NCBI GenBank assembly: GCA_951217055.1
Contig: OX578276.1
Span: 68,828,144 to 68,892,143 of the forward strand
Length of the DNA: 64,000 nt
Direction of reading: 5' to 3'
Source: Gerris lacustris
Lineage: Eukaryota > Arthropoda > Insecta > Hemiptera > Gerridae
The position numbers and the translations under genes were made by a program. The notes beneath the pieces are model-generated. The model had not been told where the DNA came from. It did not search any database and saw only the letters and a program-made list of their open reading frames with translations. Of this stretch, positions 1,081 through 44,679 are shown piece after piece (the stretch's first letter is position 1; each line of letters starts with the position of its first letter).

Positions 1081-1240
1081 AATTTCTCTGACTTTAATGA
1101 TACTTTGACCTGAATTTAAAGCTTTCAATTTTTCCACAAGTCTGAGAAGTCAACATTAATGACAAAGAACCAGACCGAGAAATAACGCTTATAATTATAT
1201 AGTACCCAATTAGTACCTGTACCTCGTTCAATCAATTAGA

Positions 1241-1358
1241 AATTCATATTTTACGATTTTGGTAGTATTCATACTACGGAACGATTAAATTTTAATTTAA
1301 ATCAAATTATAATTATTATTAACTACGGGAAACAGACAGAGAAAAATAGACTCCAATG
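1241..1358 (-). repeat. SINE tail fragment
   Basis: This matches the tail of the SINE at 893-1080 almost base for base, then stops at the start of the tRNA-derived part. It is a truncated second copy in the same orientation about 350 bp away, perhaps a local duplication. Confidence 0.65.
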
Positions 1359-1452
1359 ACATTTTTCTTCTAATTTTTTCTCTAATTTTATCGGATTGTT
1401 TTATAAGTAATTTGTTTTAAAAGTGTGTATGTATTAAATCTTAAACATGGAA

Positions 1453-1591
1453 CTAGGTTTTAAATTAGGCTTTTCAAATTAGGTTTTTTAAATTAGGTCT
1501 TTTTAAATTAGGTTTTTTAAATTAGGTCTTTTTAAATTAGGTTTTTTAAATTAGGTCTTTTTAAATTAGGTTTTTTTTAAATTAGATTTTT
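1453..1591 (+). repeat. AAATTAGGT minisatellite
   Basis: A tandem run of about eight imperfect units of roughly 15-17 bp with core AAATTAGGT and T-rich spacers. It contains TTAGG in each unit but is not a (TTAGG)n telomere array. Confidence 0.75.
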
Positions 1592-3800: not shown

Positions 3801-3832
3801 TGACATTCCTTTGCAATAAGAAACGTTACGGT

Positions 3833-3985
3833 CAGTGGCGTAACTATGGGCCCGCACGGGCCTGCAATTCGGGCGGGCCCCCAGTGGCAGGGGCCCCAAG
3901 TCAACGTCGAGGGGGCCCCCAGATCCAAACGCAAGTTTTTTTTTTTGCTCATCAATTTTGTTTTGGCGAGGGGCCGAAAATAAAT
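3833..3985 (+). mobile_element. hAT-like transposon end, fragment
   Basis: The sequence CAGTGGCGTAACTATGGG at the start resembles the well-known CAGTGGCGTA-type termini of hAT elements, and the following GC-rich, GGGCCC-rich tract stands out in an AT-rich setting. I could not find the matching far end, so this looks like one arm of a decayed non-autonomous copy. Confidence 0.4.
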
Positions 3986-4795: not shown

Positions 4796-6624
4796 TCCTA
4801 TAAAATAAAGCATCTACCTGGGAAGTCAAATGCACTAGCTGATGTTCTCTCCAGGTTGCCTAGGACCTCTATCATACAGAACAAGGCTGGAAGAGCAGGA
4901 AGAGGTGAGAAGATACCATGCCGAACTGCTTCGCACGAGGCATCAGGCTGAAGATAAGGGGAAGATATGTAATATCCTTTGACATTGGCATGACTGACAG
5001 AAATACTCAAGTTTATATTTCAAATTAATTTATAAATGTATTTTTCTTTTCTTAGTACGCTCTACAATTAAACATATAGATTTCATTATTACTAAAGAAA
5101 TTACACTACTAAATCTTGAAATTTGGAATTTAGCTTGCTTTTATGATATAAATGACTTAAGTGAAAGGGTTTTCCAAATTGGCCATTTTTATTCAAGTTG
5201 GCGGGCATCTATGAATATTTGAAACTAAGTTCTCTCACTAACGTATTTATCACTACATCTTTGGGGCGCTGAAATAAAATCATGGTATTTGGTATAATTT
5301 CTATAATAATATTTATGACTGCCAAAAAGGGGTCTTCTTAGGGGCCATGTAAAAAATAGGAGAACTGAGCTGATTTTATAAAGCTGCAAGGTTAATATTT
5401 GGGAAAAAGGGCGTTTCTTTAGGGTTTAAGTACCTAGTAATAAAATATAATTTCAATTTAAACCAGGTATGCCTGGGAGGTACTTTTTTACTTTGTGACC
5501 CACCCTAAGGTGGGTAACAAAGTGAATTAGGTCGGATGTGGCAAGATTTTACTTGGTTACCTACCGTTTGTTAACAATTATTGTGTTTGACATTTATTTT
5601 TTAATTAATTGACAATCTTAACTGGGGATTGTTCAAATACCCTTTGGGACAAAGGAATATCACACTTCTGTGACTAAAAATTACAAATCCGTTAGTCTAA
5701 TTATCTAGTAAGGCGAAGTAACCATTAATCCAATATATTTTGAACAAAAGAATAGATTACTTGGATTTGATAATAAATAAAAGTAATCGGAATTAGTTAC
5801 TTATTAGGGAGGTTAAAAAATTATATTTTATCTATGGTACCTAGTATCTACGGTATTCTCGTTTAGCAAAAGAATTGTAATGTGTCTTGGATCATGTCAA
5901 ATATGTTAAGACAAGTCGTGCTTTTAGATGTGAAAATTTTTCACCATCCTGATTAATAATATCAAGAAAGAGAGTGAGAGTAGGGTTTATACTTCTTTTT
6001 GACTAAATGTATAAGTTCTAGTAAGATAATTTTACCAGACCTTAAGGGTGCCATATGAGGCCACATATTGCCCGTAATGTTGCTGTTTATATACTATATA
6101 CAACGCAGAAAACATGTGTTTTCTGCGTTGTATATAGTCTCATAATATATACACTATAAATTAGTGTATAGTATTTGACAGACTATTGCTTTCAACATGA
6201 TGCTTTATATACGTAGCTTCTAACTTTTCTTTCATAATTATAGATATTAATATAGCATGATTTACATCAGTAGTAGGATAGTAGAATAGTAATTATGTAT
6301 ATAATTATTATTATAAACTATTTTTTTAAATAAATATTTAGACTTTATAAAGATCTTAAATGTATGTGCTCATATCGTTCTTTTGATGTTTTTTCCTGGA
6401 AGTTGAAACAAAAATATGTGAAGAGCATAAACTTCCTCTTGGTCTCTCTTCTCTTCCATGGCTCTCCACTTTTCATTACTCTTCAGTATGTAATATCTAT
6501 ATAAATAATATTATATTAATTTAAATTGAGTGCTTTAAGTTATTTTAACATTAAATATTAAAAAAATAAACTAAAATAATAATTACTTGGTAAATAAAAT
6601 AACATTTTTAATTAAATTCTATAA
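4796..6624. other. AT-rich intergenic DNA with hairpins
   Basis: No gene is supported. A hairpin built on CCCACCCTAAGGTGGG lies at about 5500-5516, and a 46-bp palindrome lies at 6093-6138 (listed separately). Confidence 0.45.
6093..6138. repeat. Perfect 22-bp inverted repeat
   Basis: Two exact 22-base arms starting ACTATATACAACGCAGAAAA are separated by only two bases. The DNA could extrude a cruciform, and an RNA copy would form a tight hairpin. Function unknown. Confidence 0.85.
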
Positions 6625-7095
6625 TTAACTTTCATGAATTTTTAAAAACAAAAATGTACATGTAAGAAAAACATCAATAACATGGAAAAGAACAAAGACG
6701 CTAAACATCACTAAGTCCATGAAAGTTCCTTCCACCCAATAGCTCATTGTAGCGGTGTAGTAAAGAACGCACATTATCAAATAAGAAATAAGAATGGCTA
6801 ATTTTACAATTGCCAACACTGTTATGATAGACACTGTTATATTCACTTCTGTATCTTCTTCTACAAATGCTAATGCGAAAATAGAAACGGCGACTACAAT
6901 AAATAGCGTTGCAACAGTGGCGTCTCCATTTTCTGAAGGTGTTATATAAATTCCGCAGAATAGCATTACTACATACATAATAAAATTACAGAAATCAAAC
7001 CCAAATATAATAAACCCTAAAAGTTGAGAAAGAGCCATCATATATATTTTTTGTTGACTCTTAATAGGCTGAATAGATATTAAACGTACTTGCAA
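6625..7095 (-). CDS. Putative four-pass membrane protein
   Basis: This single-exon reading frame gives 156 residues with four strongly hydrophobic segments at about 23-51, 61-78, 87-112 and 126-151. A short acidic loop (EEDTE) sits between the second and third. I do not recognise the family. A TATA box (TATAAAA, 7119-7125, minus strand) lies only about 24 bp before the first ATG. A transcript starting about 30 bp downstream of it would therefore miss that ATG, and the likelier start is one of the two adjacent Met codons at residues 19-20 (7041 or 7038). The length and regular spacing of hydrophobic segments make a chance frame unlikely in AT-rich DNA, but AT-rich sequence does favour hydrophobic residues, so this stays a prediction. 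No neighbour gives a clue to its role. Confidence 0.5.
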   Translation of the reverse strand: MQVRLISIQPIKSQQKIYMMALSQLLGFIIFGFDFCNFIMYVVMLFCGIYITPSENGDATVATLFIVVAVSIFALAFVEEDTEVNITVSIITVLAIVKLAILISYLIMCVLYYTATMSYWVEGTFMDLVMFSVFVLFHVIDVFLTCTFLFLKIHES

Positions 7096-9259: not shown

Positions 9260-9989
9260 AAGATGTATCACCAAAATATTCTTTTTTATAAGTTAAATGA
9301 GGTTCTACACTGAGCCTGTGCCGTTCCGAATCAGACCGCTCAGTCCCGTCTCCTTTACCGAACCTTCAAAATCAAATTTCCCTTCAATGATAAATTTTTG
9401 TCTTGACTGGCATGTACCGTGAGTTTTCTTAGTTTTAAAAATAGGCCATGAAACATTAATTGAATGTGTACGTATGTACCCAGTACTGTATGATTCGTCC
9501 AATGTGAAGTACATAAGCGCTAATTGAATCCTATATATATGTTTCGATTTGGTTTGTTTCTGTGTGGCTGGCTGATGACAAAATCTTTTGAGGGCTAATT
9601 AACCCTTTTCTGGACCTCCTATAGAGCTGAAACTTAGCACAGCACATTGACTCTGTACCTTATGATTTATGATATGGCCTCGTTAAATAATTATTCTTCG
9701 TAACTAAACCTCAATGATTTTTTTTTTTTTCCGTCTACCATTAGTTGCAGAAGAATAGATTATGGTTCAAACAATTAAGAAAATGTATATTTTACTGAAA
9801 TAATGTATATATTTTACTAAAATACGTGTTTATTCTGAAGGTAACTCATATTTATTTAAGGGTTATTGAATAAATAAAAAAATATCATTTATATTTAAGG
9901 GTGGATAACGTCTTAAACATTTTCTAAGAACCGGAGATCATGTTGAATTTATTTTTTAAATTTGAAGCTACTGGAAAAGGAATCGTGCT
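9260..9989. other. Intergenic DNA with dispersed-repeat fragment
   Basis: No gene is supported. The stretch 9588-9660 (aatcttttgagggctaatta, then gagctgaaactta) resembles the repeats at 2010-2110 and 2225-2310. Confidence 0.45.
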
Positions 9990-32727: not shown

Positions 32728-33880
32728 TGACATCAATTTGGTTTCCGTACACATCATTCCACTATCCAACAATGCCATCGCATTGTCGATGTCATTGCAT
32801 CCTCCCTTATGAACAAAAAGTACTGTTCAGCTGTCTTCCTAGACGAGTCACAAGCTTTTGACAGAGTATGGCATTCTGGCTTGCTTTGGAAGCTCAAGGG
32901 CATCCTACCATTCACCTATTACCTTATCCTCAAGTCCTATCTCACTGACAGATTTTTTCGTGTAAGTCTTGGATCTTCCTTTTCTGTTATTTGCCCTGTG
33001 AGTGCTGGAGTACCACAGGGCAGTATCCTAGGACCTCTTCTCTACTCCCTATATACTCATGAGTATTTCCCCAGCATCCCTTGCCACATTCGCAGATGAT
33101 AAGGCAATCCTTTCTGTCCAAGAGAACCACCTCCTTGCATCTGATAATACCCAAAGTCATTTGTTACTCCTCGAACCTTGGTTAAGGAAATGGAGGATAA
33201 AGATAAACGAACAGAAAAGTGTTCATGTCACTTTTGCTCTTCGTCACAACACCTGTCCTCCAGTCACCCTTAATAAAGTTCTCATTCCTCAGTCCGACTC
33301 CGTCCGATACCTTGGCCTTTTCCTTGACCGACGATTAACGTGGCAACTACACACAAAAACAAAACGTACTGACATCACACGACGATACAAGTTACTGCTC
33401 GGTCTTCTTGATCGTATGTCTAATATTTCTCTTAACAACAAGCTTCGTAATGTAGTTCTAAACCCAGCTTGGACCTACGGTCTGGAAGTGTGGGGCAGCA
33501 CCAAGCCTTCCAATTCCCATCGTCTACAAATCCTGCAGTCAAAAATCCTTATAAAAATAACCAATGCTCCTTTCTATGTTTCTAACCTTACTCTCCACTC
33601 TCCACGAAGATTTGAATGTGCCCTTTGTCCGAAATCTAACCATATCCCAATATAAAAAATTCCATGAATCCATATCCCACCATCCAAATCCTCTTGTACA
33701 ACTCTTGTCCTCTATGTTCATCCCTAGCAACCCACCAAGACGTTTGAAGAGGAGGTGGCCTAGAGATCTCTTACCTTAAAATATATTTTTCCCTTAAATT
33801 ATGTTACCTCATTTTAATATTATTATTACTGTAATTTATTTAAAAAAAACAAAAAAAAAAAAACAAAAAAAAAAAAAAAA
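32728..33880 (+). pseudogene. 5'-truncated, frameshifted Jockey-type LINE
   Basis: This is the 3' part of a non-LTR retrotransposon reverse transcriptase. The frame starting about 32728 carries FLDESQAFDRVWH (palm motif) and SAGVPQGSILGPLLYSLYT. A shift near 33060 leads to the next frame with FADDKAIL (the catalytic FADD box), then VRYLGLFLDRRLTW and TYGLEVWG, typical of the Jockey clade. A second shift near 33595 moves to a third frame with SQYKKFHESISHHPNP and a stop at about 33777. A poly(A) tract with a few C interruptions ends at 33880. Two frameshifts and the missing 5' end make it dead. The Polinton at 33888 lies immediately downstream. Confidence 0.85.
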
Positions 33881-33881
33881 C

Positions 33882-33887
33882 CAGTTA
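33882..33887 (+). repeat. Left 6-bp target duplication CAGTTA
   Basis: CAGTTA directly precedes the left terminal repeat and recurs at 44674-44679 directly after the right one. A 6-bp duplication is the rule for Polinton/Maverick integration. Confidence 0.9.
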
Positions 33888-34275
33888 AGTAGTATGTTTT
33901 TGGTGATACTGGCCAGTCCAGTACTGGCCCATTTTTATATACGGGAAAATACTGGCCCAGCCTTAGAGTGGCGCGCATGCGCAGAACGATGGCGCCACTC
34001 GAGGGCAAGCTCGGGCCCGCCCGCGATGTGCGTATCGCCCCCCGCCCGCGCCCCGCGATGTCGATATCGCCCCCGCCCTCGTCCCGCGATGTAGGTATCG
34101 CCCCCCGCCCCCAGTTATATTTTTGAGCCTCTATACGAGGATTCTGGCCCAGATATGTCAGGGGATTCTAGCCCAGATCAGCACTAGCCCAATTTTATAC
34201 ACGGGAATTCTAGCCCAGATATGTCCGGGGTTTCTAGCCCAGATCAGTACTGGCCCAATTTTATATACGGGAGGT
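33888..34275 (+). repeat. Left terminal inverted repeat with subrepeats
   Basis: Bases 33888-34159 match the reverse complement of 44401-44673 with about one indel. Within lie an NRF-1-type site (33972-33983), three GC-rich tandem units of about 32 bp (CGCGATGTnnnTATCGCCCC, 34019-34111), and toward the inside two units of about 65 bp with GATATGTC and CTAGCCCAGATCAG. The phrase GGCCCA-TTTTATATACGGGA occurs both near the outer tip and in the inner units. Confidence 0.9.
33972..33983 (+). promoter_or_regulatory. NRF-1/Ewg-type motif in left terminal repeat
   Basis: CGCGCATGCGCA fits the NRF-1 consensus YGCGCAYGCGCR exactly. The same site occurs at the mirrored place in the right repeat (44578-44589). 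Confidence 0.5.
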
Positions 34276-34734
34276 TGTAATTTCATATCGGAAGTCCGTT
34301 AATGATTTCAAACCTGTTTGCTATCCCTCTTATAAAAAATGGACTCCTATAATTAAGTCAACCTTGATCCTAACCTGTTTTATTTTGCACCTGTTCCAAG
34401 TTAAAAACGGACGGGAGAATTAACTGATATTCCAATGACCCTCTCTAATTAGCTCTGAATACATTTTTTATCCACCTGATCCCTTATTTTATAGTAAAGG
34501 AAATAGACACAAAAGAATAAATTAATATAATAGAATGTGTTTATTTATACCTATAATTACATTCATAAATAATAAATTAATTACATTCTACATTTTAAAT
34601 AAAATAAAATTTACTATAAAATATAATGCATATGTTAAAAAAAAAAAAAAAAAAAAATTATTTAAAAAAAATTAATAATCATTCTTTCGTTACTTTTTTT
34701 TTAAAGCATTATACAAAGTTCAATCACTTATACA
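34276..34734. other. Non-coding left spacer of the element
   Basis: AT-rich DNA between the terminal repeat and the stop of the exonuclease-BIR gene. Read on the minus strand it has an AATAAA signal (34540-34545) that could end the transcripts of the minus-strand block. An A run lies at 34634-34657. Confidence 0.55.
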
Positions 34735-35490
34735 CTAATTTTCGAAATTATTTAAGGGGCAGCTCGAAGAAGACCATGAGTGATGAGATGAAATATTATC
34801 ACAATTTTCCCAGTCATTGATGAGGGTATTACAAAAAATACACCTTGTATATCCTGCATGCCAATGGGTCAGTCCAAATTCCGCCATTTTCTCCGGGTCT
34901 GTATTTTGTACGGTCCAATTTCTAAAAGTCAAGAGTCTAGTGGTATAATCATGTAGACTTAAACTGTTGTCTTTACACCAGTAACTGAGTACCATAGCTA
35001 TGGACACGGCTGATTTATTTTGACTGATATTATATTTCTTGATCAAACTGGTGATAGGAGGACATCTTAACTCATCCAACAGGTAAATTTGATGCGATGT
35101 ATACAGTTGTTTTATATATGATCCTTTGCCGAAACCTTTCATGAAAATGAAATCGTATCGCGAAAGGAAAGTATCCACTAATTGATAGAGGAGATTCTTC
35201 ATATATTCTTGATTATATGTGCAAGGAGACCAGCGATAACGAATTTCGGGTAATCTGATCTGTTGTCCACTCGTAAAGGAATTTTGGTATACGATTTTCA
35301 ATTCGTTCACGTCTACTATGGCAATCTCACGTACATATTTGGTACCATGATAAAACTGAATATCCAATACGGCGGCGCAACTTTCACTCGTGCAGTTATT
35401 ATTTTCGGTTGGAATAGAGTATGAAGACGACATGTTTCTTGAATAAACCCTTGACATAAACTGATTGCCTGTCCCTCCGTCTGTGACCAT
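34735..35490 (-). CDS. Possible exonuclease-like protein with C-terminal BIR domain
   Basis: The frame has 251 residues. The C-terminus (about 185-246) is a BIR zinc domain: RLLTFRNW, AEFGL, then zinc ligands C217-x2-C220-x16-H237-x6-C244 with the W-E-x-x-D spacing of IAP proteins. The N-terminal part (about 38-175) has VLDIQFY, VREIAIVD, FIFMKGFGKGSYI and LLDELRCPP. By eye it resembles a DEDD/RNase H-like family common in insect genomes; this part is uncertain. BIR domains in IAPs bind caspases or their activators, so a role in blocking host cell death is an inference. The stop of the capsid gene touches this ATG (TAAATG). A TATAAAT at 35489-35495 covers the junction, so Met12 (35457) or Met20 (35433) may be the true start. 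Confidence 0.75.
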   Translation of the reverse strand: MVTDGGTGNQFMSRVYSRNMSSSYSIPTENNNCTSESCAAVLDIQFYHGTKYVREIAIVDVNELKIVYQNSFTSGQQIRLPEIRYRWSPCTYNQEYMKNLLYQLVDTFLSRYDFIFMKGFGKGSYIKQLYTSHQIYLLDELRCPPITSLIKKYNISQNKSAVSIAMVLSYWCKDNSLSLHDYTTRLLTFRNWTVQNTDPEKMAEFGLTHWHAGYTRCIFCNTLINDWENCDNISSHHSWSSSSCPLNNFEN

Positions 35491-35495
35491 TTATA
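35489..35495 (-). promoter_or_regulatory. TATA box before the BIR gene
   Basis: TATAAAT on the minus strand spans the end of the capsid gene and the first ATG of the BIR gene. If used, the transcript would start near 35460 and use Met12 or Met20. Confidence 0.4.
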
Positions 35496-36723
35496 CCACT
35501 CGATGGATCATTCCGTCAGAGGGTGTGTACTGTATGAGTCTGTCGTGTAGAATTAAACAGTAGGCACTTGTGTTTGCGGGAAAATTCTCTCTCGCCGAAA
35601 ACTCGAGACGTACGTCTACCGCAGACGATTTTATCGCATCTCTTTGCTTACTGCAGTCGATCACTATTATCGGAGCCAATTTCTTAAACTCTTCCATGTT
35701 TAACAGTGGTTCTGAATTGTCCTTGTGGTAGTAGGAAACTTGAAATTGTGTATACATTTCGTACAGAAGAGCGTATCTGTTGTTATCGAAATCGAGGTTC
35801 AAATCGTCATAAGGATAGGTATCTCCGTTTAAATACAACTTGACGTTACGGAGATTGCAATGGTCGAAAAGACTCGAAGACTTATGCATTTTATTCCTCC
35901 GGTCGGTTTGAAAGGCCAGAATTATGAAACGAGGTTTTTCCAAATTGCTCGAAAGTTTTACCGACCAAGATTGTCGGTCACTCACAGGAAGTTGAGGGTA
36001 GTGCAGACATTCCCAGCTTCGAAAAGCTAATGTAATTGGCCGATCCCTTTCGAGAATTTTCAAAATGTCTAATCGAGCGCGATCATTCAGCTCGACGACA
36101 GGCATCATCCAGCTGACGTTAATTAACTTCATGGAAAATGTATCGTCCGTTTCCCCTTCCTTTCGGTAAATCGCGTCATTATCGCTCTGGGCCCTGGCTA
36201 AAATCAACTCCTGTTTCATGTTGATAATGAGTCGTTTATAATCATCGGCGAATCCAAGTAAATGTTTGAGAGGTACCATAAACGTAAATTTTCCATTCAC
36301 CGGTAAAGTCGAGTCTGGTTTTGACAGCCAGCAGGCGTTTCCCAAAGCATTTGCGTGTACAGGATCGAGTGAAACGAGAGCTTTTAGAGTAGTAGCTACA
36401 CCTAAATGACGCACAGAATCTACTTCGATCCCATTCAATTCATAACGGATTTCACTAAACAAGTGGGCAACCGCATTGTTTACTAGTTGTGTTGTTACTT
36501 GCGGTGGTTGTCCTTTTAAAGTTGAGGTAATGGTTACTTCTGCGACTATATAACTTTTTTCGGGGTGACTCTGCATATCCTGTGAATTGGCGGCGATTCG
36601 TATCACATCGTTGTTTCCATACTCGCCAGTTGTAATAAAAGGTTTGAATGTGTGCCACTGGTACCGGGTCACTTCCTCTTGAAAAGAAGGAGGTTGAGCA
36701 ATGTCCAACAATTCACCCATCAT
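35491..36723 (-). CDS. Major capsid protein (double jelly-roll type)
   Basis: A 410-residue protein with the signature stretches of insect Polinton/adintovirus capsid proteins: IRYELNGIEVDSVRH (about 92-106), FMVPLKHLLGF (148-158), PRFIILAFQTDRRNK (264-278) and the FDHCNLRNVKLYLNG - YPYDDLNLDF region (286-312). Two beta-rich halves (about 20-210 and 225-405) fit two jelly rolls, which would form the trimeric hexon-like capsomer. It is shorter than many Polinton capsid proteins but has no stop or visible gap. A TATA box lies about 50 bp upstream, within the end of the preceding gene. The assignment rests on remembered family motifs, not a search. Confidence 0.85.
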   Translation of the reverse strand: MMGELLDIAQPPSFQEEVTRYQWHTFKPFITTGEYGNNDVIRIAANSQDMQSHPEKSYIVAEVTITSTLKGQPPQVTTQLVNNAVAHLFSEIRYELNGIEVDSVRHLGVATTLKALVSLDPVHANALGNACWLSKPDSTLPVNGKFTFMVPLKHLLGFADDYKRLIINMKQELILARAQSDNDAIYRKEGETDDTFSMKLINVSWMMPVVELNDRARLDILKILERDRPITLAFRSWECLHYPQLPVSDRQSWSVKLSSNLEKPRFIILAFQTDRRNKMHKSSSLFDHCNLRNVKLYLNGDTYPYDDLNLDFDNNRYALLYEMYTQFQVSYYHKDNSEPLLNMEEFKKLAPIIVIDCSKQRDAIKSSAVDVRLEFSARENFPANTSAYCLILHDRLIQYTPSDGMIHRVV

Positions 36724-36750
36724 CGATTGAGTGTCTAGAGAGACTGAAGC

Positions 36751-37080
36751 CTAGTCGTAGCGGTCCTCATAATTTATAATTATTTTTTGGTCCATTTTTA
36801 ACTGCTGTAGTTTTTCCTTGAAATCATAAAGAGCCATACCGATGTGACAACACATGCATGTATCGGGACCGTCACTGAACTCATCTCGCGACCTTGAACA
36901 AGCCTCGTAATGACATCCATTTTTATTATAGATCGGCTTTCCGACATCTTCACATTTGTATATAAGTTTGTTTAACGCTCTGTTGGCCTCTAGAAACAAT
37001 GAAGCACGCGAGTCACTCAACAGTATACTGTTGTAAATTTCACGAAATTGTCTTATATCAATTTTATTTAGAACATCCAT
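36751..37080 (-). CDS. Cys-rich 109-residue protein, function unknown
   Basis: I do not recognise the family. The first half is predicted helical. Residues from about 43 to 80 hold Cys and His in a possible zinc-binding pattern: KCEDVG, NGCHYEACS, then DTCMCCHIG. It lies between the 48-residue peptide (13-bp overlap at its start) and the capsid gene (27-bp gap), on the same strand, so it is probably expressed with the virion block. It could be a small regulatory zinc protein or a minor virion part. Confidence 0.65.
   Translation of the reverse strand: MDVLNKIDIRQFREIYNSILLSDSRASLFLEANRALNKLIYKCEDVGKPIYNKNGCHYEACSRSRDEFSDGPDTCMCCHIGMALYDFKEKLQQLKMDQKIIINYEDRYD
36772..36778 (-). promoter_or_regulatory. 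TATA box of the capsid gene
   Basis: TATAAAT on the minus strand, 49-55 bp before the capsid ATG at 36723 and inside the last codons of the 109-residue protein. Confidence 0.55.
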
Positions 37081-37214
37081 AGCGATCGCACCTCGTATCC
37101 TTTCCGCCTTAACAAGTCCACGTACCTATTGGGTATGTATTGAACCAAACCGCTTCCGCGAATGGTATGATGAACCCCTCTACCTCGCTTATATGCGCTA
37201 AAATCCAGCCCCAT
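37068..37214 (-). CDS. Small basic 48-residue peptide
   Basis: A short frame overlaps the end of the penton-like gene (17 bp) and the start of the Cys-rich gene (13 bp). It starts MGLDFSAYKRGRGVHHTIRG and is rich in Arg, Gly and His. The stretch IRGSG fits the adenovirus-protease site pattern [MIL]-x-G-x|G, and an adenain-type protease is encoded next door, so it could be a processed core peptide. Tight overlaps on both sides and the basic composition argue for a real gene; the function is a guess. Confidence 0.55.
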   Translation of the reverse strand: MGLDFSAYKRGRGVHHTIRGSGLVQYIPNRYVDLLRRKGYEVRSLWMF

Positions 37215-37932
37215 TTTTCTCGGTCAAGTGTAATACTACTGTAACCGTTTCTCCTCTGAAGTCCAACAAATTATTTTTCTGATCCAGCAAGCGCAGCCTG
37301 ATGTTGTCAATCCTTCGAGTGTTGACGGGGTAATAAATCGGTTTAGGGGGTACCTCAATCAATTTATACCCAGGTGGTACTCGGGGAACAAAGGAATAAA
37401 TAATATGTGTTCTGACGCTCGAATTATCCTCTCTCAATAGGTTACTATAACCTCCCTCGGCAATGTTACATTCAATCTGTACGTTCATAACGGGTGATAT
37501 ATCCACAATACGGTCCGATTCCAATCGCCATTTTCTGACCTCGGGTTTTGGATCAAAATCGAATCCGAGCAAAGGACCGATCGAATTCGGTTGAGAAAAC
37601 GTAATTCTTACATTGGTTTTTATCTCAGTTTTTAGAGTGTTGAGATTGCCGATAAGAGTTATAGAATATTGTTTGTCGAGTTTTCGATTTAAGTACTTAT
37701 TTAGACCGTTGAGTTCGTAGGCTCCGGTGGGGAAAGATATAACTTTTAACGTGTTATCAAAGTCATAAAAGTGTAACAAGTTGTTTACGTTTTCGACAAC
37801 ATTTGGAAAGGAATTGAATCCTACAAAGCTGACGAGAGCTATTGAATACTCATCGTTCTCTAACGCGATCGGAGGGAAGACGTCAGACGTAAGTTCCGAC
37901 GAGGAGCCTGTTAGGGTGAAGGTGTGGTTCAT
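37198..37932 (-). CDS. Penton-like minor capsid protein
   Basis: The protein of 244 residues starts MNHTFTLTGSSSELTSDVFP and continues to a stretch with ISFPTGAYELNGLNKYL (about 75-91) and a Gly/Pro-rich C-terminal half. The F-x-L-x-G-x-x-S-x-L...FPPI start and PTG-x-Y-E-L-x-x-x-N motif are typical of Polinton and adintovirus penton (single jelly-roll) proteins, which fill the capsid vertices. An upstream in-frame Met at 37995 exists. I prefer 37932 because this ATG overlaps the protease stop (ATGA), the family begins here, and a TATA-like box lies 30-37 bp upstream. It sits between the protease and the small peptide. Confidence 0.8.
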   Translation of the reverse strand: MNHTFTLTGSSSELTSDVFPPIALENDEYSIALVSFVGFNSFPNVVENVNNLLHFYDFDNTLKVISFPTGAYELNGLNKYLNRKLDKQYSITLIGNLNTLKTEIKTNVRITFSQPNSIGPLLGFDFDPKPEVRKWRLESDRIVDISPVMNVQIECNIAEGGYSNLLREDNSSVRTHIIYSFVPRVPPGYKLIEVPPKPIYYPVNTRRIDNIRLRLLDQKNNLLDFRGETVTVVLHLTEKNGAGF

Positions 37933-38285
37933 TTCTGATACTCGTCGATATGATGCATTATAATATATAGAAAAATCAGACAGAGCTGTCCGCAAAGCTC
38001 GCCATCAAACTGAATCTGTTCGGAATTGAAAAATACGTAACAGTCAGTAAGATAAGTCATTACACTCGGAGGTGGGGGTAAACCATAGCTGTCAAATACC
38101 AGGGCAATGTGATAATTTATGACGATGCAACACCAATGAGTCCCCGGGTTAGACGACGAATCCAAGTTGTAAATCAAACATTCAACCTTCTTTCTTTTCG
38201 CCGGTAATGCGTCCCTCATGTACACACCTCGAAAGTGTGGGATTTTTAATATGCCCGCGTAGTTATCGATGTCGTAATTACTCAT
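37929..38285 (-). CDS. Adenain-like cysteine protease
   Basis: A compact 118-residue protease of the Ulp1/adenovirus-protease fold. The catalytic set is visible: His50 in GTHW, Asp65 in FDSYG, Gln92 in QIQFDG and Cys98 in ELCGQLC. The N-terminal FRGVYMRDALP is also typical of adenain-type enzymes. In Polintons this protease matures capsid and core proteins, and candidate [MIL]-x-G-x|G sites occur in neighbouring proteins (48-residue peptide and DUF8207 protein A). Its stop overlaps the ATG of the penton-like gene. A TATAAAG at 38359-38365, inside the preceding gene, could be its promoter. Confidence 0.88.
   Translation of the reverse strand: MSNYDIDNYAGILKIPHFRGVYMRDALPAKRKKVECLIYNLDSSSNPGTHWCCIVINYHIALVFDSYGLPPPPSVMTYLTDCYVFFNSEQIQFDGELCGQLCLIFLYIIMHHIDEYQK
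37962..37969 (-). promoter_or_regulatory. TATA-like box of the penton-like gene
   Basis: A TATATATTA stretch on the minus strand, within the end of the protease gene and about 30-37 bp before the preferred penton ATG (37932). Confidence 0.4.
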
Positions 38286-38308
38286 GGCTCCCGCGGGCAG
38301 GAGCGATA

Positions 38309-39097
38309 TCAGTTTTTTTGGGACTTGCGATGTTTCGCGTTGTGTACTGACGATCCCACTTTATAGGGAGCGAGAAACAATCCTCTTCCATGTTGATATG
38401 GGTTATACGGTGCCAAGAACAACCCCTTACCCTGTTTACTACTCTCCATCGCTCGGTTATGTCTCTGTAACTCTTCCAAAGTCTTTTGCGATATTTTCGA
38501 ATCCTTGTATGCTTTGACAGCAGTCGAGGAGCTCGCGATCACGCTTCCCAATGCACCCAAACCTGCCAAAAGAAGTGGTAAAAATCCACCGGTCTTTGGT
38601 GCCTTTAACCGTCGGAATGATCCCTTTTGCGAAATAGGTTTACTTCGTTTGGAGACTCCGATGACGCCACCACCGCGTTGCTTCCTGCTATGACGTTGCT
38701 GCTTTCTTACCATCTTGTCTTGTTTTAGCGTCAAACAACCCATACCTTTCTTCATTTTACCTCCGAGTTTCACTTTTCCCTTCATAATGTTAGTCACCAG
38801 GTATGCCGACGCTTTTTCTCCCAGCGATGAGTTAGGAGCTTTGACTCGTTTCCAAGCCTTTTCAATGAGAAATTTATCAGCCTCTCTTCTGTATTTGGGC
38901 TCTTTGCTTTTGGAATAGGCAATGTCGTGCTCGAGACAAGCAGTATCTAATTCGTTGACGGGTCTATCACCCCGTTTTAATCGATCTTCTAGTTTAGTAC
39001 CGGGTCCACAGTAGTTGTAGGTGGGTAAATGAACTTCAAATGGTAATTTATCGATAATGCTGTTTATCAGTCCTTCTCCTTTGACTGTCCGCTTCAT
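38309..39097 (-). CDS. Parvovirus-type PLA2 domain fused to basic core-like tail
   Basis: Starting at the Met at 39097 the protein has 262 residues; an upstream Met (39172) lies before the TATA box and is unlikely. Residues 1-85 form a compact PLA2 domain like that in parvovirus VP1: calcium loop YCGPGT (29-34) and catalytic pair H58-D59 in EHDIAYS. Residues 105-170 are Lys/Arg-rich, residues 170-190 are hydrophobic (GGFLPLLLAGLGALG), and the end repeats GLFLAPY twice (225-231, 239-245). The hydrophobic-plus-tail part resembles pX/core-like proteins of Polintons. Inferred role: a minor virion protein that breaches endosomal membranes and binds DNA. It is the first gene of the minus-strand block. 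Confidence 0.82.
   Translation of the reverse strand: MKRTVKGEGLINSIIDKLPFEVHLPTYNYCGPGTKLEDRLKRGDRPVNELDTACLEHDIAYSKSKEPKYRREADKFLIEKAWKRVKAPNSSLGEKASAYLVTNIMKGKVKLGGKMKKGMGCLTLKQDKMVRKQQRHSRKQRGGGVIGVSKRSKPISQKGSFRRLKAPKTGGFLPLLLAGLGALGSVIASSSTAVKAYKDSKISQKTLEELQRHNRAMESSKQGKGLFLAPYNPYQHGRGLFLAPYKVGSSVHNAKHRKSQKN
38359..38365 (-). promoter_or_regulatory. Possible TATA box of the protease gene
   Basis: TATAAAG on the minus strand, 74-80 bp upstream of the protease ATG and within the PLA2 gene's last codons. Confidence 0.3.
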
Positions 39098-39125
39098 AAT
39101 GATCCCTAAATAATTTTGTAAGTAG

Positions 39126-39156
39126 TATTTATATGATTTACTTTCGTGTATAAATA
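39126..39156. promoter_or_regulatory. Divergent promoter with two TATA boxes
   Basis: Two identical TATAAATA boxes face away from each other: minus strand at 39126-39133 for the PLA2 gene (ATG 39097) and plus strand at 39149-39156 for the ATPase gene. The spacing means the plus transcript should start near 39180, so the ATPase ATG is the one at 39190. Confidence 0.7.
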
Positions 39157-39189
39157 CAGGGGATTTGCACAATGATTTTGCAGTCTAAA

Positions 39190-39906
39190 ATGGAGATCAT
39201 GCAGCATAACATGTCTTTGGACATTAATGATATTATGCCTGAGGAGGACAACAGTAGTAAATCATTCATTAAACATTCACCAATGTTACCGAATAACATT
39301 CGATGTCTCGTAGTCGGCTCTTCGGGTTTTGGCAAAACTCACCTTACTTTGGGACTGTTGTATCATCCGGCAGGATTGCGATTTGAAAACCTATACGTGT
39401 TTTCAAAGTCATTGTTTCAACCGAAATATAAGATGTTACAACAAGTGATGGATTCGATCCCCGAATGTGGATACTATACCTTTTCCGACAGCAGTGAACT
39501 TATTTCACCTCAGGATGTTAAGGAACATTCTGTGATGATTTTTGACGACATTGCTTGTGAAAAACAAGATAAAATATTAGAATTTTTCGCTATGGGTCGG
39601 CACAGAAATGTCGACTGCTTTTACCTGTGTCAAACATACTCTAAAATACCGAAACAATTGTTGAGGGATAATGCTAACATGTGTATGATATTTCCACAGG
39701 ACAAGTTGAATTTAAAACATATTTATGACGATCATATTTACGACTTGGATTTCACTGAATTTACTAACATGTGTAAATACGCTTGGGGCGGACACAAAGG
39801 CCATTCGTTTCTCACTTTATGTAAAGATTTGGAAACGAGTAAAGGGAGATTCAGGCGAAATTTAGATCAGTATATAATACCCGGCGGTAGTGGAGAATCA
39901 TCATAG
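39190..39906 (+). CDS. DNA-packaging ATPase (FtsK/HerA type)
   Basis: A 238-residue ATPase starting MEIMQHNMSLDINDIM. Walker A is GSSGFGKT (43-50), Walker B is VMIFDDI (115-121), and the following CQTYSKIPKQLLRDNANM (147-164) is the usual sensor/arginine region. This family pumps genomic DNA into capsids of Polintons, adintoviruses and related viruses. An ATG at 39172 is in frame but lies too close to the TATA box. It heads the plus-strand block and is followed after 6 bp by the DUF8207-like gene. Confidence 0.92.
   Translation: MEIMQHNMSLDINDIMPEEDNSSKSFIKHSPMLPNNIRCLVVGSSGFGKTHLTLGLLYHPAGLRFENLYVFSKSLFQPKYKMLQQVMDSIPECGYYTFSDSSELISPQDVKEHSVMIFDDIACEKQDKILEFFAMGRHRNVDCFYLCQTYSKIPKQLLRDNANMCMIFPQDKLNLKHIYDDHIYDLDFTEFTNMCKYAWGGHKGHSFLTLCKDLETSKGRFRRNLDQYIIPGGSGESS
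39871..39878 (+). promoter_or_regulatory. TATA box of the DUF8207-like gene A
   Basis: TATATAAT lies in the last codons of the ATPase gene, 35-42 bp before the ATG at 39913. Confidence 0.45.
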
Positions 39907-39912
39907 TATGTC

Positions 39913-40842
39913 ATGGATTCTGACAGCGTCACAACCAAAAGAAAGGTAGCCGAACTAGCCGAAATTGTGCGGAAAAAAATTAAAACATTAAAAAGAGACT
40001 TGGCAGATCAGCAGGAGGCTACGGAACGACAAGTGGGTCCGCTTAAAAAACCCTTGCAATCTATCGCTGATACACTGGCTGATACAATTGCACAGAAAAA
40101 AATTAAATCAGGTCCATCCGAAGAACCTCCCATGATAAAACCAAAGAAGGAGGAGTTAACTGAAACTAAGATGGAGGATGAATCAACTGAGGAACCCAGC
40201 GGAACTGAAGTTGAAGAAATAAATGAAAAATATGAAGAGTTGCCAACTGAGGTAGATGAAATTATTGAGGAATGCGACGAGTCGCAAACTGATTGTCCTG
40301 AGGAAAAAATAAAAAAGGATAATATAACCTCACTTGATTTCCAAGAGGCGGTTCAGAGTGAAGAAAAGCCTGATCATATTTATGGTTTTCGTTACGATGG
40401 AAGTAAATATTGGATTGGCGACTCTCAAGCGCGCATCGGTAAAAAGTATCTTAATATAGGTGACTCAAAATACCGCTATACCACGGGACTTTTAGAACTG
40501 CTTACGCTTCAAAGACCCAAAAATTACAATCAAAATGATTTGGATATGTATAAACTAATTTTACAGCAGACCAGCGCGCACAAAAAAACATTCAGCAGCG
40601 AGAAACCAATCAACTCAAACAAAGGTTATAAATACATTAATATTGTCAGACCGCTGTTTAAGAAGGGGAAAATAAAGGGGAAAGGTCTCACTTTTTATAA
40701 ATGTGATAATAATAACGATAGTATTCTCGATATGTTGTCTCGCTTGGAATTACTTTGGAGCTCTGAAGAGGCGGGTAACACTCATACTGATGAAATAAAC
40801 GCCATTATAAACAGTCTTAGATATTATGGCGTGATATATTAA
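39913..40842 (+). CDS. DUF8207-like protein A
   Basis: A 309-residue protein. Residues 1-150 are highly charged and probably unstructured or coiled coil (Lys/Glu-rich, with KKIKTLKRDL early). Residues about 154-258 form a folded domain with YGFRYDGSKYWIGD, IGDSKYRYTTGLLELLTLQR and DMYKLILQQTSAH, which from memory matches a domain of unknown function (DUF8207) found in insect Polinton-type elements. The sequence IKGKG near residue 256 fits an adenain-type cleavage site. A related domain is present in the protein at 43258-44034. Function unknown; a virion or DNA-binding role is only a guess. Confidence 0.75.
   Translation: MDSDSVTTKRKVAELAEIVRKKIKTLKRDLADQQEATERQVGPLKKPLQSIADTLADTIAQKKIKSGPSEEPPMIKPKKEELTETKMEDESTEEPSGTEVEEINEKYEELPTEVDEIIEECDESQTDCPEEKIKKDNITSLDFQEAVQSEEKPDHIYGFRYDGSKYWIGDSQARIGKKYLNIGDSKYRYTTGLLELLTLQRPKNYNQNDLDMYKLILQQTSAHKKTFSSEKPINSNKGYKYINIVRPLFKKGKIKGKGLTFYKCDNNNDSILDMLSRLELLWSSEEAGNTHTDEINAIINSLRYYGVIY
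40835..40842 (+). promoter_or_regulatory. TATA-like box of the fibre-like gene
   Basis: TATATTAAAA begins here, overlaps the stop of the preceding gene and lies about 40-46 bp before the ATG at 40881. A TCAGTC initiator-like site (40869-40874) follows at the usual distance. Confidence 0.45.
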
Positions 40843-40880
40843 AAAGAACCGGTCGAAGCCGTATTGTAATCAGTCTCATA

Positions 40881-41321
40881 ATGCCTATCGACAAGTTCGG
40901 TCATCACCACCTTGAAAGGTTCTTGACAGGAGAAACAGTGGATGTTAACGGTCGCAGAATAGTCAATACAGCCCCACCGGAGGAGGATGATGATGTCGTT
41001 ACACTAAAGTATTTCCGCGACTCTGTTAACGAACAGTCTTTTGACTCTAAGTATGTGAAGGAGAAATCAGTAGATCTGAAGAGTAAACGAATAGTTAACT
41101 TGGATGAACCGATAGAACGCAACGATGCAGTAACAAAAGAATATGTAGATAGGTATTTTGTGAAACTAAAATTGCCCTCTCCCAAAGGCGAAGTTGTAAA
41201 AACATTTCAACATAATTTTGAAGAAAGTGATACAGTGACATACGCCGATGTTTTCGCTCTTATGTCTACGATATTTTTCGTCAAGTTTGTAAAGAGAACC
41301 CCAGCACCGGACAACCAGTGA
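40881..41321 (+). CDS. Fibre-like repeat protein
   Basis: A 146-residue protein starting MPIDKFGHHHLERF. Two repeats of about 28 residues are visible: VDVNGRRIVNTAPP then DDVVTLKYF (20-47), and VDLKSKRIVNLDEP then NDAVTKEYVD (64-91). This V-D-L-x-x-x-R-I-V-N-x-x-x-P...D-A-V-T-K-x-Y-V pattern is the shaft/neck repeat seen in phage tail fibres and in some virus attachment proteins, where it forms trimers. The C-terminus holds a hydrophobic segment (FALMSTIFFVKFV, about 125-137). I infer a virion spike or its anchor. Receptor specificity cannot be judged. The gene ends about 20 bp before the integrase ATG. Confidence 0.65.
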   Translation: MPIDKFGHHHLERFLTGETVDVNGRRIVNTAPPEEDDDVVTLKYFRDSVNEQSFDSKYVKEKSVDLKSKRIVNLDEPIERNDAVTKEYVDRYFVKLKLPSPKGEVVKTFQHNFEESDTVTYADVFALMSTIFFVKFVKRTPAPDNQ

Positions 41322-41338
41322 TCAGTACATCACTAGAC

Positions 41339-42256
41339 ATGGATACTGTCAAAGCTCAGATTGTGAATGAAATCTACCGTCCCGCCAGGAGGAATTTTCC
41401 CCGGCGTAGAGTTACAATAAAGGGTTATGACGATCTATTTGAAGCCGATTTAGTCCAAATGAATACCCATGCTCGTGTAAATAAACAATATAATTACATT
41501 TTGACTGTTATAAACGCTTACAGCAGGTACGCTTGGGCTGTACCTTTGAAAAATAAAACAGGTGTCCTAGTCGCCTCGGCATTGAAGAAAATATTTAAAG
41601 AGTTAACACCACACTACCTGCATACTGATCTCGGCAAAGAGTTTTATAATTCAAGTGTGAAAAAACTTGTAAAAGATCTGGGAATTATCCATTATTCTAC
41701 GCATTCAGGTCTCAAGGCGACAATGGTGGAAAGATTTAACAGGACTCTCAAAGCAAAGATGTACAAACAATTTGCTCTTAATGGGAGCTACAAATGGTTA
41801 GATATGATGCCTGCTTTGGTTAGACAGTATAATGATACTGTGCACTCAAGCATAAACATGAAACCTCGTGACGTAACCGCTTTGACTTTAATAGATCCTC
41901 GCAGTAAAAGGAAAGTAAAGTCCAAGCCTCCTAGATTCTCAGTCGGCGATAACGTTAGAATTTCAAAGTATAAAAATGTTTTTTCCAAAGGATATGATGC
42001 TAATTTCAGTACCGAGATATTTCGAATTGCCGAGGTCAAACCGACTTTACCCCCTACTTATACACTGCGGGATGCATCCGACCAGCACATAGTCGGTTCG
42101 TTTTACGAACAAGAACTCACACCAGTAAAGTATCCAGACTCATACCTGGTGGAAAAAATTGTGCGCAAAAATAAAAATAAAAACAAAGCTCTTGTTCAGT
42201 GGCTTGGTCTGAAGGAAAGAACATGGGAAGATTTGAAGAAAATGTCAAACTTTTAG
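41339..42256 (+). CDS. Polinton integrase with chromodomain
   Basis: A 305-residue retrovirus-like (rve) integrase that inserts the linear DNA into the host chromosome. The catalytic triad is D37 (EADLVQM), D97 (HTDLGKEF) and E131 (MVERFNRTLK). The start IYRPARRNFPRRRV is typical of Polinton integrases, which lack a clear N-terminal zinc finger. Residues 268-305 (YLVEKIVRKNK...ALVQWLGL..RTWEDL) form a chromodomain likely to bind histone tails and guide insertion. An in-frame GTG lies upstream at 41318; the first ATG is at 41339. The intact triad suggests the enzyme is active. Confidence 0.93.
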   Translation: MDTVKAQIVNEIYRPARRNFPRRRVTIKGYDDLFEADLVQMNTHARVNKQYNYILTVINAYSRYAWAVPLKNKTGVLVASALKKIFKELTPHYLHTDLGKEFYNSSVKKLVKDLGIIHYSTHSGLKATMVERFNRTLKAKMYKQFALNGSYKWLDMMPALVRQYNDTVHSSINMKPRDVTALTLIDPRSKRKVKSKPPRFSVGDNVRISKYKNVFSKGYDANFSTEIFRIAEVKPTLPPTYTLRDASDQHIVGSFYEQELTPVKYPDSYLVEKIVRKNKNKNKALVQWLGLKERTWEDLKKMSNF

Positions 42257-42526
42257 TACCCGTATTAGACGATCTGACGACAGTAAAGTAATCCAATAAT
42301 ACTCCTATCTAATCATGAAGACTGATTGAAAGAAAAAAAAAAGAAAAAAAAAAAAAAATCCTAATTACTGGAATAGAAGGAAAGGACGAGGGAAGAAATT
42401 AAGAAAAATTACAAACTTTTATTGTATGTTTAAAAAAAAAATAAAAAAAAATCCAATATTGTCGTTTTGTTTTTATTTATTTAACATACCTTTTATATTG
42501 ATACAACAGGTAACAAATAATAATTT
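42257..42526. other. Convergent terminator region
   Basis: The region lies between the integrase stop (plus) and the stop of a minus-strand gene. It holds A-rich tracts, an AATAAA for the plus strand at about 42434-42441 and an AATAAA for the minus strand (as TTTATT at about 42471-42480). Transcripts from both sides probably end here. Confidence 0.55.
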
Positions 42527-43237
42527 TCAATCGAATTGTGAAACGTCAAAGTCAAAAATTCTTTCGACATTAATATCATTAACTATATCCTTGTCAATAT
42601 TTGACAGCCAAGTGTCAAGTGAATCTTGATAATTCTCCTGTGTAGACAGTTCTTGGATCCTCTCTTCCGAAGTAGTTTTCTTGTCGACGAAACCAATGGC
42701 TGTGGGATTGTTGAGTATCCATGTAACAAGACCCTTCGAAACTGCTCGAGTACACGAGATATTAGGTTTATATTTGCTGTGGAACTCACATTTGTCTCCA
42801 TCCTTCTCGATGTTGTCTTGAAAATTAACCAGATTGATCATATTTATGACAGGTCTTTGTACTATTCTTTCGATTAATTCCATGTTACCATGTGCAAATA
42901 CAAAGCGGGCTCTGTCCAAGTGAAAAGGTTTAGTCTTGTTGAACTTAATTAGACTTATGGTAGAGTATACTTTTCTATATCTAGATTTATGAGTGTAACT
43001 GTAGTCGTATTGAATCAGCTTTCTCGGCATGCGTAGTACGTAGTGATACATCATGTCTGGTGTGGAGACAGTCAATTCTTTGGGAAGTCTCGAATCGTCA
43101 GGTCCAGTCACAGTTTCAAGACACACAATCGCCCACGGATAATCATACTCTATATTTTCTCTCATTCCGGGGAAACTAAAAGACTTCTTCACTGGAGGCA
43201 TAGTGTCTGTTGCGGAATGCTGATAAAGACTGAACAT
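42527..43237 (-). CDS. Possible exonuclease-like protein, no BIR domain
   Basis: A 236-residue protein of uncertain family. The order IVCLETVTG, LPKELTV, YHYVLRMP, FVFAHGNMELIERIV and the Cys/His stretch CEFHSKYKPNISCTRA parallels the N-terminal part of the BIR protein (VLDIQ, REIAIVD, FIFMKGFGKGSYI). This by-eye match suggests two paralogues of a DEDD/RNase H-like family, but key acids are not all clear and the enzyme activity is unproven. The C-terminal 60 residues are acidic. The gene follows DUF8207-like gene B by 20 bp on the same strand, so they may share a transcript. Confidence 0.6.
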   Translation of the reverse strand: MFSLYQHSATDTMPPVKKSFSFPGMRENIEYDYPWAIVCLETVTGPDDSRLPKELTVSTPDMMYHYVLRMPRKLIQYDYSYTHKSRYRKVYSTISLIKFNKTKPFHLDRARFVFAHGNMELIERIVQRPVINMINLVNFQDNIEKDGDKCEFHSKYKPNISCTRAVSKGLVTWILNNPTAIGFVDKKTTSEERIQELSTQENYQDSLDTWLSNIDKDIVNDINVERIFDFDVSQFD

Positions 43238-43257
43238 AAACTAAATTAGTCAATTAG

Positions 43258-44034
43258 TCAATAGACTGTAAACTCAGTCGGGTTGTCAACAAATTTACCG
43301 ATTACAGTTTTGAATTTATGAGACAACCTATCTGTCCCAAGACGTGCCTTTGATATCGCGTTGGAAAGAAGTAGTATTTTTCTGTAATTTTCCTCGTCTC
43401 TTTCGGTATAGTACCCCGGGTTTCTGGTGAATAAAAGCGAATAGAGACCGGAAGTACCTTCAAACTCCCCGACAAATTGACGTGTAACATTTCCGACGCT
43501 ATCCTCGATATCCTTAGTCAAAATTATATCTGCTCCGATGGGATCGATTTCTACCGCAGCGTCGCCTATTTGCAATTCATTATTCTCGTTTAATCGGACA
43601 CCGTAGACAGGGTCCAAGTTGATATGGTCCGAGAGAACCATTTCGATATAAGGACGTGCGAGAACGGGCAATTCTTCCATTATTTCAGACTTTTCCTGCA
43701 TCGACTGTTCGGCAAATGATTCGCGGACCGATTTTTCCGGGCTGTACTCGAAAGATTCTTCTTCTCGAATAATTTTTTTTTCGGGTTGAGGTGCTGTCTG
43801 AATACCGATCGACGTCTGAGGGTATTCTGTAGTCGTAGAAGCGTCATTAACGTTGGTACGCGGTCCAGGTATTGATTTGTTAAAGTTGTTACTGTTAATT
43901 AACTGTATTATTGGCGAATATGCTTCCACCAACTTCCTTGACCACACGTCTTTCGCCATTCTGTTCTTGAAATACTTAGTTTTCAAATTGTACCTAGTTT
44001 TAATCAGATCCGAAAGTAAACCTTTGCGTCCCAT
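43258..44034 (-). CDS. DUF8207-like protein B
   Basis: A 258-residue protein. The N-terminal 35 residues are basic (MGRKGLLSDLIKTRYNLKTK), residues 45-130 are low-complexity and acidic, and residues about 138-225 match protein A in pattern: YGVRLNENNELQIGD, then EGTSGLYSLLFTRNP and ENYRKILLLSNA. The two proteins thus share one folded domain with different charged N-termini. Function unknown. A TATA box lies about 45-50 bp upstream. Confidence 0.7.
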   Translation of the reverse strand: MGRKGLLSDLIKTRYNLKTKYFKNRMAKDVWSRKLVEAYSPIIQLINSNNFNKSIPGPRTNVNDASTTTEYPQTSIGIQTAPQPEKKIIREEESFEYSPEKSVRESFAEQSMQEKSEIMEELPVLARPYIEMVLSDHINLDPVYGVRLNENNELQIGDAAVEIDPIGADIILTKDIEDSVGNVTRQFVGEFEGTSGLYSLLFTRNPGYYTERDEENYRKILLLSNAISKARLGTDRLSHKFKTVIGKFVDNPTEFTVY

Positions 44035-44078
44035 GAGACTGCCTACGTTAAACTAATTGAGTAGTAATAATTACCTTA

Positions 44079-44086
44079 TTTATATA
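44079..44086 (-). promoter_or_regulatory. TATA box of the DUF8207-like gene B
   Basis: TATATAAA on the minus strand (within TATATATAAATAAG), 45-52 bp before the ATG at 44034. It would drive this gene and the exonuclease-like gene behind it. Confidence 0.6.
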
Positions 44087-44301
44087 TAAAATGGCTAATT
44101 AGAAGACTTTAAGAGGACTATATCTTTTTGATTTAAAATAATATTAATGGAATGCGTTTTTAAAATATAATGTTTACCTATTTTTAAATTAAGATCTGTC
44201 GACGAAAGAGGGTCAGGTGTTCGTAAGACAGAGGACAGGCCCGGACATAGCTTAGGCTAGAAACTCCCTATTATTTATTAAAAAATGTGATGGAGGGTAC
44301 A

Positions 44302-44673
44302 GGGCCAGTACTGATCTGGGCTAGAATCCCCGGACATATCTTGGGCTAGAACCTCCCGTATATAAAATTGGGCCAGTACTGATCTGGGCTAGAAACCCCG
44401 GACATATCTGGGCCAGAATCCTCGTATAGAGGCTCAAAAATATAACTGGGGGGCGGGGGGCGATACCTACATCGCGGGACGAGGGCGGGGGCGATATCGA
44501 CATCGCGGGGCGCGGGCGGGGGGCGATACGCACATCGCGGGCGGGCCCGAGCTTGCCCTCGAGTGGCGCCATCGTTCTGCGCATGCGCGCCACTCTAAGG
44601 CTGGGCCAGTATTTTCCCGTATATAAAAATGGGCCAGTACTGGACTGGCCAGTATCACCAAAAACATACTACT
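44302..44673 (-). repeat. Right terminal inverted repeat
   Basis: The inverted copy of 33888-34275. The outer 273 bp differ by one extra C in a C run. Further in, the 65-bp units differ in number and sequence from the left end, so the two ends are not fully homogenised there. Confidence 0.9.
44578..44589 (-). promoter_or_regulatory. NRF-1/Ewg-type motif in right terminal repeat
   Basis: TGCGCATGCGCG on the plus strand is the mirrored copy of the site at 33972-33983. Confidence 0.5.
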
Positions 44674-44679
44674 CAGTTA
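44674..44679 (+). repeat. Right 6-bp target duplication CAGTTA
   Basis: Matches 33882-33887. Confidence 0.9.

Follow-up and report, generated by a model that had tools for sequence, protein, structure and literature searches.

Polintons are called self-synthesising because they carry a DNA polymerase B (PolB). Mavirus, Sputnik and other virophages rely on a giant virus and encode their own polymerase. We describe here a Polinton-type element from the genome of the water strider Gerris lacustris, intact, 10,786 bp long and with 12 genes, which occupies positions 33888-44673 of the window, that is, of the whole 64,000-nucleotide stretch analysed (C1:68828144-68892143). It is one of many near-identical capsid-bearing, PolB-free Polintons that are likely copied in trans by the protein-primed PolB of other elements, most likely those of a sister group termed D, a reading to which we assign a probability of about 0.6. 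With the virophages it shares the penton fold, the mavirus penton being its best PDB match, and, as is proposed here, dependence on another agent, but the missing function in this case would be the polymerase itself.

Several described systems come close to this element. Sf-Maverick 1 and 2 from Spodoptera frugiperda cells are compact insect elements that share with it a chromodomain integrase, an A32-like ATPase, a phospholipase A2 (PLA2)-type CAP, a protease and an ORF2 (in the Sf-Mavericks an open reading frame (ORF) of 305 amino acids (aa)); their 404-aa ORF7 is of capsid-protein size and was read as a double jelly-roll (DJR) capsid protein from size and gene order alone, and both differ from the window element in having a POLB ORF of about 3.5 kb (PMC5803895). 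Adintoviruses resemble it in their hexon-type major capsid protein (MCP), penton, protease, packaging ATPase and integrase with a C-terminal chromodomain (PMC11071296, PMC8363768), and those of insects measure 13-14.6 kb and carry PolB (PMC8363768). They are, however, defined in part by a PolB with an OTU-like domain, which is absent from our element; the same source mentions genomes with adenovirus-class virion proteins that have no recognisable PolB and integrase, whereas the integrase is kept here (PMC11071296). Polinton-like viruses mostly do without the protein-primed PolB of polintons and have other replication proteins instead; a capsid module without that polymerase is thus common to them and to the element, but they mostly lack a retroviral-type integrase, which the element has, and none of their replication proteins is recognised in it (PMC11071308). 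No description of PolB-free, capsid-complete, integrase-bearing animal Polintons was recognised in the open-licence literature searched.

An intact element without PolB

No protein-primed PolB is present in 33888-44673 as judged from the ORF list and Pfam, the longest frame being at most 410 aa and no polymerase family being matched, and Pfam at E<=1 likewise gave no replacement replication protein (helicase or primase fusion), several ORFs having no family assignment. Other Polinton/Maverick features are found, namely long terminal inverted repeats (TIRs) with a 6-bp target-site duplication (TSD), a retrovirus-type (rve) integrase, an A32-type ATPase, a DJR MCP and, by structure model, a penton. 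The sequence-only reading of this DNA had proposed an intact polymerase-free element with a 6-bp target duplication, and this stands; of the protease gene that it also named, the motif is present and a Pfam match is not. Since PolB is missing although the other tested features are there (the protease by motif only), the element is, by its gene content, a PolB-free relative of Polintons and not a Polinton in the strict sense. Its features are as follows.

33882..33887: left TSD, CAGTTA
33888..34112, + strand: left TIR, 225 bp, perfect, tip AGTAGTATG
34735..35490, - strand: 251-aa protein with a BIR domain at its C-terminus (PF00653, 1.1e-8)
35491..36723, - strand: DJR MCP (PF21738, 4.1e-120)
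36751..37080, - strand: 109-aa ORF, no Pfam or PHROG matches
37198..37995, - strand: penton, 265 aa, by structure model; best PDB match mavirus penton
37929..38285, - strand: adenain-like protease, 118 aa, by motif only, no Pfam match
38309..39172, - strand: PLA2-domain protein, 287 aa (PF08398, 3.5e-15)
39172..39906, + strand: A32-type packaging ATPase, 244 aa (PF04665, 2.7e-8; P-loop GSSGFGKT)
39913..40842, + strand: ORF2, 309 aa, no Pfam matches over the cut-off
40881..41321, + strand: fibre-like protein, 146 aa (PF03906, 1.9e-6; PHROG tail-fibre families, best 8.6e-8)
41318..42256, + strand: rve integrase, 312 aa (PF00665, 1.3e-10; PFV integrase match, 3e-8)
42527..43237, - strand: p236, in the interval that holds PolB in group D
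43258..44034, - strand: p258, common to groups B, C, D and D0
44449..44673, - strand: right TIR, 225 bp, perfect
44674..44679: right TSD, CAGTTA

Copies and related groups in the genome

Searches of the own genome covered 937 Mb in 69 contigs and scored the best of their candidates (88 of 240 for the PolB family, 85 of 128 for D-type PolB, 40 of 130 for the TIR, 102 of 323 for the MCP, 150 of 231 for the D-type MCP, 127 of 2,200 for the integrase, 147 of 597 for p258, 150 of 249 for p236 and 144 of 292 for the penton); the resulting counts are lower bounds. By identity to the window MCP the listed loci form group A, to which the window element belongs (97-100%, at least 13 loci), group B (86-95%, 31 loci) and group C (76-78%, 29 loci), the counts of B and C including fragments, followed by D and D0 (67-71%, 7), E (47%, 11) and F (42-43%, 11). 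As lineages, B and C have MCPs that are 94-95% and 76% identical to that of A.

Ten elements with A-type termini were compared as separate stretches. Five sister copies (L041/42, L043/44, L053/54, L055/56 and L057/58) contain all twelve genes in the same layout and differ from the window by 1, 2, 2, 3 and 9 coding substitutions over about 8.5 kb, p236 being split between stretches and compared in part only. L047/48 has 38 coding differences, including a 14-nt gap in the penton gene, and no match to the right TIR. Of the 10 elements with both ends read, the window element included, 8 lie between exact 6-bp TSDs; in L043/44 the TSD TCTCTA emerges if the right tip is taken to have one more AGT unit, and no exact 6-bp TSD was resolved in L055/56. 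Because the sister copies are near-identical and mostly have exact TSDs, the sequences indicate that the group A lineage has spread very recently. A deletion private to the window copy, which had been offered as an alternative, is rejected, the layout being the same in the five sister copies.

PolB of family PF03175 was scored at 88 places in the genome, and a 1,518-bp query from group D listed 31 of its own type, 17 at 98-100% (D1) and 14 at 85-86% (D2). The frames measure 1,253-1,260 aa in 27 of these 31, one of the 27 having a stop inside the match. Measured against the 88 places, PolB lies within 20 kb of none of the 13 MCP loci of group A, in agreement with the proposal of a distinct PolB-free lineage, of one of 31 in B (19 kb away) and of none of 29 in C; these distances use 102 of 104 MCP rows, the two omitted being second pieces of counted loci. 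Measured against 33 PolB places (the 31 of D and two more), PolB lies within 14 kb of p258 in 0 of 11 A, 0 of 26 B, 0 of 26 C and 30 of 31 D copies, for which 103 of 151 p258 rows were used, those omitted being mostly fragments with a few longer degenerate copies.

Among the 31 D copies an integrase is listed for 17, and in these the interval between p258 and integrase spans 5,626-5,894 bp, with PolB inside it; in A the interval measures 1,007-1,014 bp in 10 of 11 copies (4,352 bp in the other) and holds only p236. In B it is mostly about 1.3 kb (range 1,154-3,916, integrase listed for 25 of 26), the largest value coming from the second of two p258 copies at a single locus. In D0, three loci show a 3.09-kb gap with p236 inside and no PolB among the 33 places tested. 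In group C, both p258 and p236 are found on the MCP side and not beyond the integrase, and the absence of PolB from C is a matter of position lists, the sequence beyond its integrase being outside the reading. Of the PolB-bearing groups among the matches listed, D comes nearest to A in its integrase (63-65% identity, against 47-51% for E and F), and it shares p258 and p236 with A. The presence of PolB between p258 and integrase in this sister lineage makes a loss of PolB at the level of the lineage probable. The observation that would have told most strongly against the sequence-only reading, loss from the window copy alone, is not what is seen; its weaker form, a sister lineage with PolB between two of these genes, is. 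The possibility that p236 is a detectable remnant of PolB was considered and rejected, since a comparison with ten frames of the PolB loci L001-L008 gave a best E of 0.18; p236 homologues are also found beside D-type PolB.

Scans of viral contigs and of genome contigs gave no relatives. Two further arrangements were observed among the related groups. At one group B locus (C3:16110901-16132334) p258 is present twice and an A-type TIR end lies in the stretch from integrase to penton, which looks like the insertion of a gene-poor element into the locus. Paired p258 homologues (48%), inverted and about 9-10 kb apart, occur at C1:157468541/157477811 and C3:86738720/86748470, as would be seen if long inverted repeats contained p258 there.

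Capsid genes and PolB mostly on different elements

The gene neighbourhoods of D and non-D PolB were taken from the typed entries of the lists for MCP, penton, p236, p258 and integrase. Within 15 kb of the 31 D PolB places, p258 is listed at 31, p236 at 23 and integrase at 19, and MCP with penton at three, where the match to each penton contains two stops; that D is capsid-negative is read from position lists, and the unread stretch of about 4 kb between its integrase and p236 could hide an unrecognisable capsid gene. A 600-bp D-type MCP query matched three MCPs of D type at 100% and, at 87-88%, four D0 relatives; two degenerate fragments (C1:97982168 and C9:44661994) followed at 85-86%, and the remaining matches, to A, B, C, E and F and to further copies, extended down to 36% identity. 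A listed MCP is found no more than 15 kb from p258 in 11 of 11 A, 19 of 26 B and 26 of 26 C copies, and 59 open full-length MCP genes are listed (10 in A, 22 in B and 27 in C), one of which, in B, has a PolB nearby, 19 kb away. At the 55 non-D PolB places a listed MCP is found within 15 kb in 38 cases and a listed penton in 15. These neighbourhoods suggest that capsid genes and PolB are largely on different elements, the former on A, B and C and the latter on D.

At five PolB places other than D1 and D2 (C4:44136947, C2:29452634, C2:13457321, C1:125422086 and C5:54793983) the surrounding 15 kb contain a homologue of p236 and no MCP on the list; perhaps these are further capsid-negative polymerase elements.

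Proposed replication in trans and its alternatives

We propose that the PolB of another element would copy A as linear DNA, starting at the AGTAGT tips of its TIRs, that A's own integrase would insert this copy and so make the 6-bp TSD, and that the capsid protein, penton, protease and ATPase of A would allow the packaging of A and perhaps of the polymerase elements too. Insertion of a linear copy by the integrase is implied by the exact ends of copies at new sites and by the 6-bp TSDs around them. A-type TIRs must moreover be recognised in trans, as gene-poor derivatives with such TIRs (L045/46, L049/50 and L051), inside which neither integrase nor PolB was seen, are also flanked by 6-bp TSDs. 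Protein-primed replication, as in adenovirus and phi29, is marked by tip repeats and by sliding or jumping back at the ends. The tips of the window element are repeated AGTAGT and one A copy (L043/44) shows one AGT unit more at one of its tips, which by analogy fits tip slippage during such replication; a polinton and a bidnavirus are reported to have tips of the form GTGTGTGT (PMC4061559). Because A has an integrase without a polymerase and its tips resemble protein-primed ones, PolB is the likely copying enzyme, supplied in trans, and on balance we favour this mode of replication for A, with D or the full Polintons of groups E and F as the putative helper.

Several results weigh against this proposal. 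A comparison of the 600 bp outside p258 in one D element with the outer 400 bp of A gave a best E of 0.06, this flank matching host repeats in part and the boundary of D not being located, and all 40 A-type TIR ends that were scored are more than 20 kb away from every one of the 95 listed PolB places, so that shared termini between A and its helper are not established. Full Polintons with both PolB and MCP (E and F) also reside in the genome and could be the helper instead, and not all candidates of the genome searches were scored.

The dependence between A and its helper could also be mutual rather than one-way, because capsid genes are mostly not seen in D, which is the nearest group with PolB. 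A more specific version, which we hold to be possible though improbable, is that of a split Polinton, in which the capsid elements (A, B and C) and the polymerase elements (D), each with its own integrase, would trade polymerase for capsid and neither would spread between cells alone. Bidnaviruses offer a parallel in their insect hosts, genes on two linear segments, polinton-origin PolB and short tip repeats (GTGTGTGT), but they have single-stranded DNA, a parvovirus-type capsid and conserved segment termini (PMC4061559); A and D are integrated double-stranded DNA elements, each with an integrase, and common termini are not established for them.

Of the competing explanations, the one that survives best is that ordinary full Polintons (E and F, with PolB and capsid genes) serve as helper, which would make A a classic one-way satellite and leave D uninvolved. 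It is a minority possibility to our minds: a listed MCP does accompany 38 of the 55 non-D PolB places, as given above, and many non-D PolB frames are open at about 1,250-1,312 aa, but the integrases of E and F are more distant from A than that of D, and p258 (D-type list) is found within 15 kb of none of the 55. It is unlikely that A moves without any PolB, its integrase acting on host-polymerase copies or on excised DNA. The polymerase is indeed absent and the A integrase is open in 10 full-length listed copies at 100% identity; the long perfect TIRs, repeated tips and extra AGT unit nevertheless fit protein-primed copying better, and excision of DNA is not known for retroviral-type integrases. 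Least probable is a short-lived burst of copies after recent loss of PolB from an autonomous element still present but unlisted, for although the D layout and the partial scoring of every search leave room for it, B and C, with many open copies, equally have no listed PolB within 14 kb of p258, and the D-type PolB search listed fragments down to E 1.8e-6, none of them near A, B or C p258.

Other features of the element and its derivatives

The left TIR is continued inward to about 34279 by diverged sub-repeats. A LINE-like element with reverse-transcriptase ORFs (RVT_1) occupies window positions 32809-33880, and its A-rich tail directly abuts the left TSD, which indicates that the Polinton-type element inserted next to the 3' end of the LINE. 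A 184-aa ORF at window position 47674 has no Pfam match.

Among the gene products, the MCP has 1,819 homologues at E<=0.001 in the protein collection, and two relatives from outside assemblies, P0001 and P0002, are 74% and 72% identical to it; a PDB sequence search with the MCP as query gave nothing. The BIR (IAP-type) domain, carried here by a transposable element, has Apoptosis 1 inhibitor as best PDB match (1.6e-8), and the N-terminal 180 residues of that protein have no Pfam label. The 146-aa protein with phage tail-fibre-like repeats, encoded just ahead of the integrase, is a candidate vertex fibre. The C-terminus of the integrase has a weak chromodomain match (PF00385, 0.0023, below the cut-off). 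No homologues of p236 were found at E<=0.001 in the protein collection, and its single-sequence structure model (pLDDT 30) is unusable.

Three gene-poor derivatives (L045, L049 at 5764-7008 and L051) keep the BIR ORF and the final 300 nt of the MCP gene. They also have an ORF of 414-537 aa with a psq helix-turn-helix (2.6e-8), the C-terminus of which matches ORF2 (62% over 40 residues). In L051 both TIRs (1001-1225 and 9705-9929) have the same four variants (positions 80, 85, 103 and 146), absent from the other eight elements compared, as if the two had been homogenised. L039/L040 (C8:47112089-47123437) agrees with group A from its left TIR as far as the integrase start, beyond which its sequence resembles the gene-poor derivatives; its TSD, CAGGAC, is intact.

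Implications

If replication in trans is true, PolB-free capsid elements would not be self-synthesising, and the order in which PolB and capsid genes are lost could be readable within one genome. Particle formation by animal Polintons would moreover become testable through selection on the capsid genes of elements that do not copy themselves.

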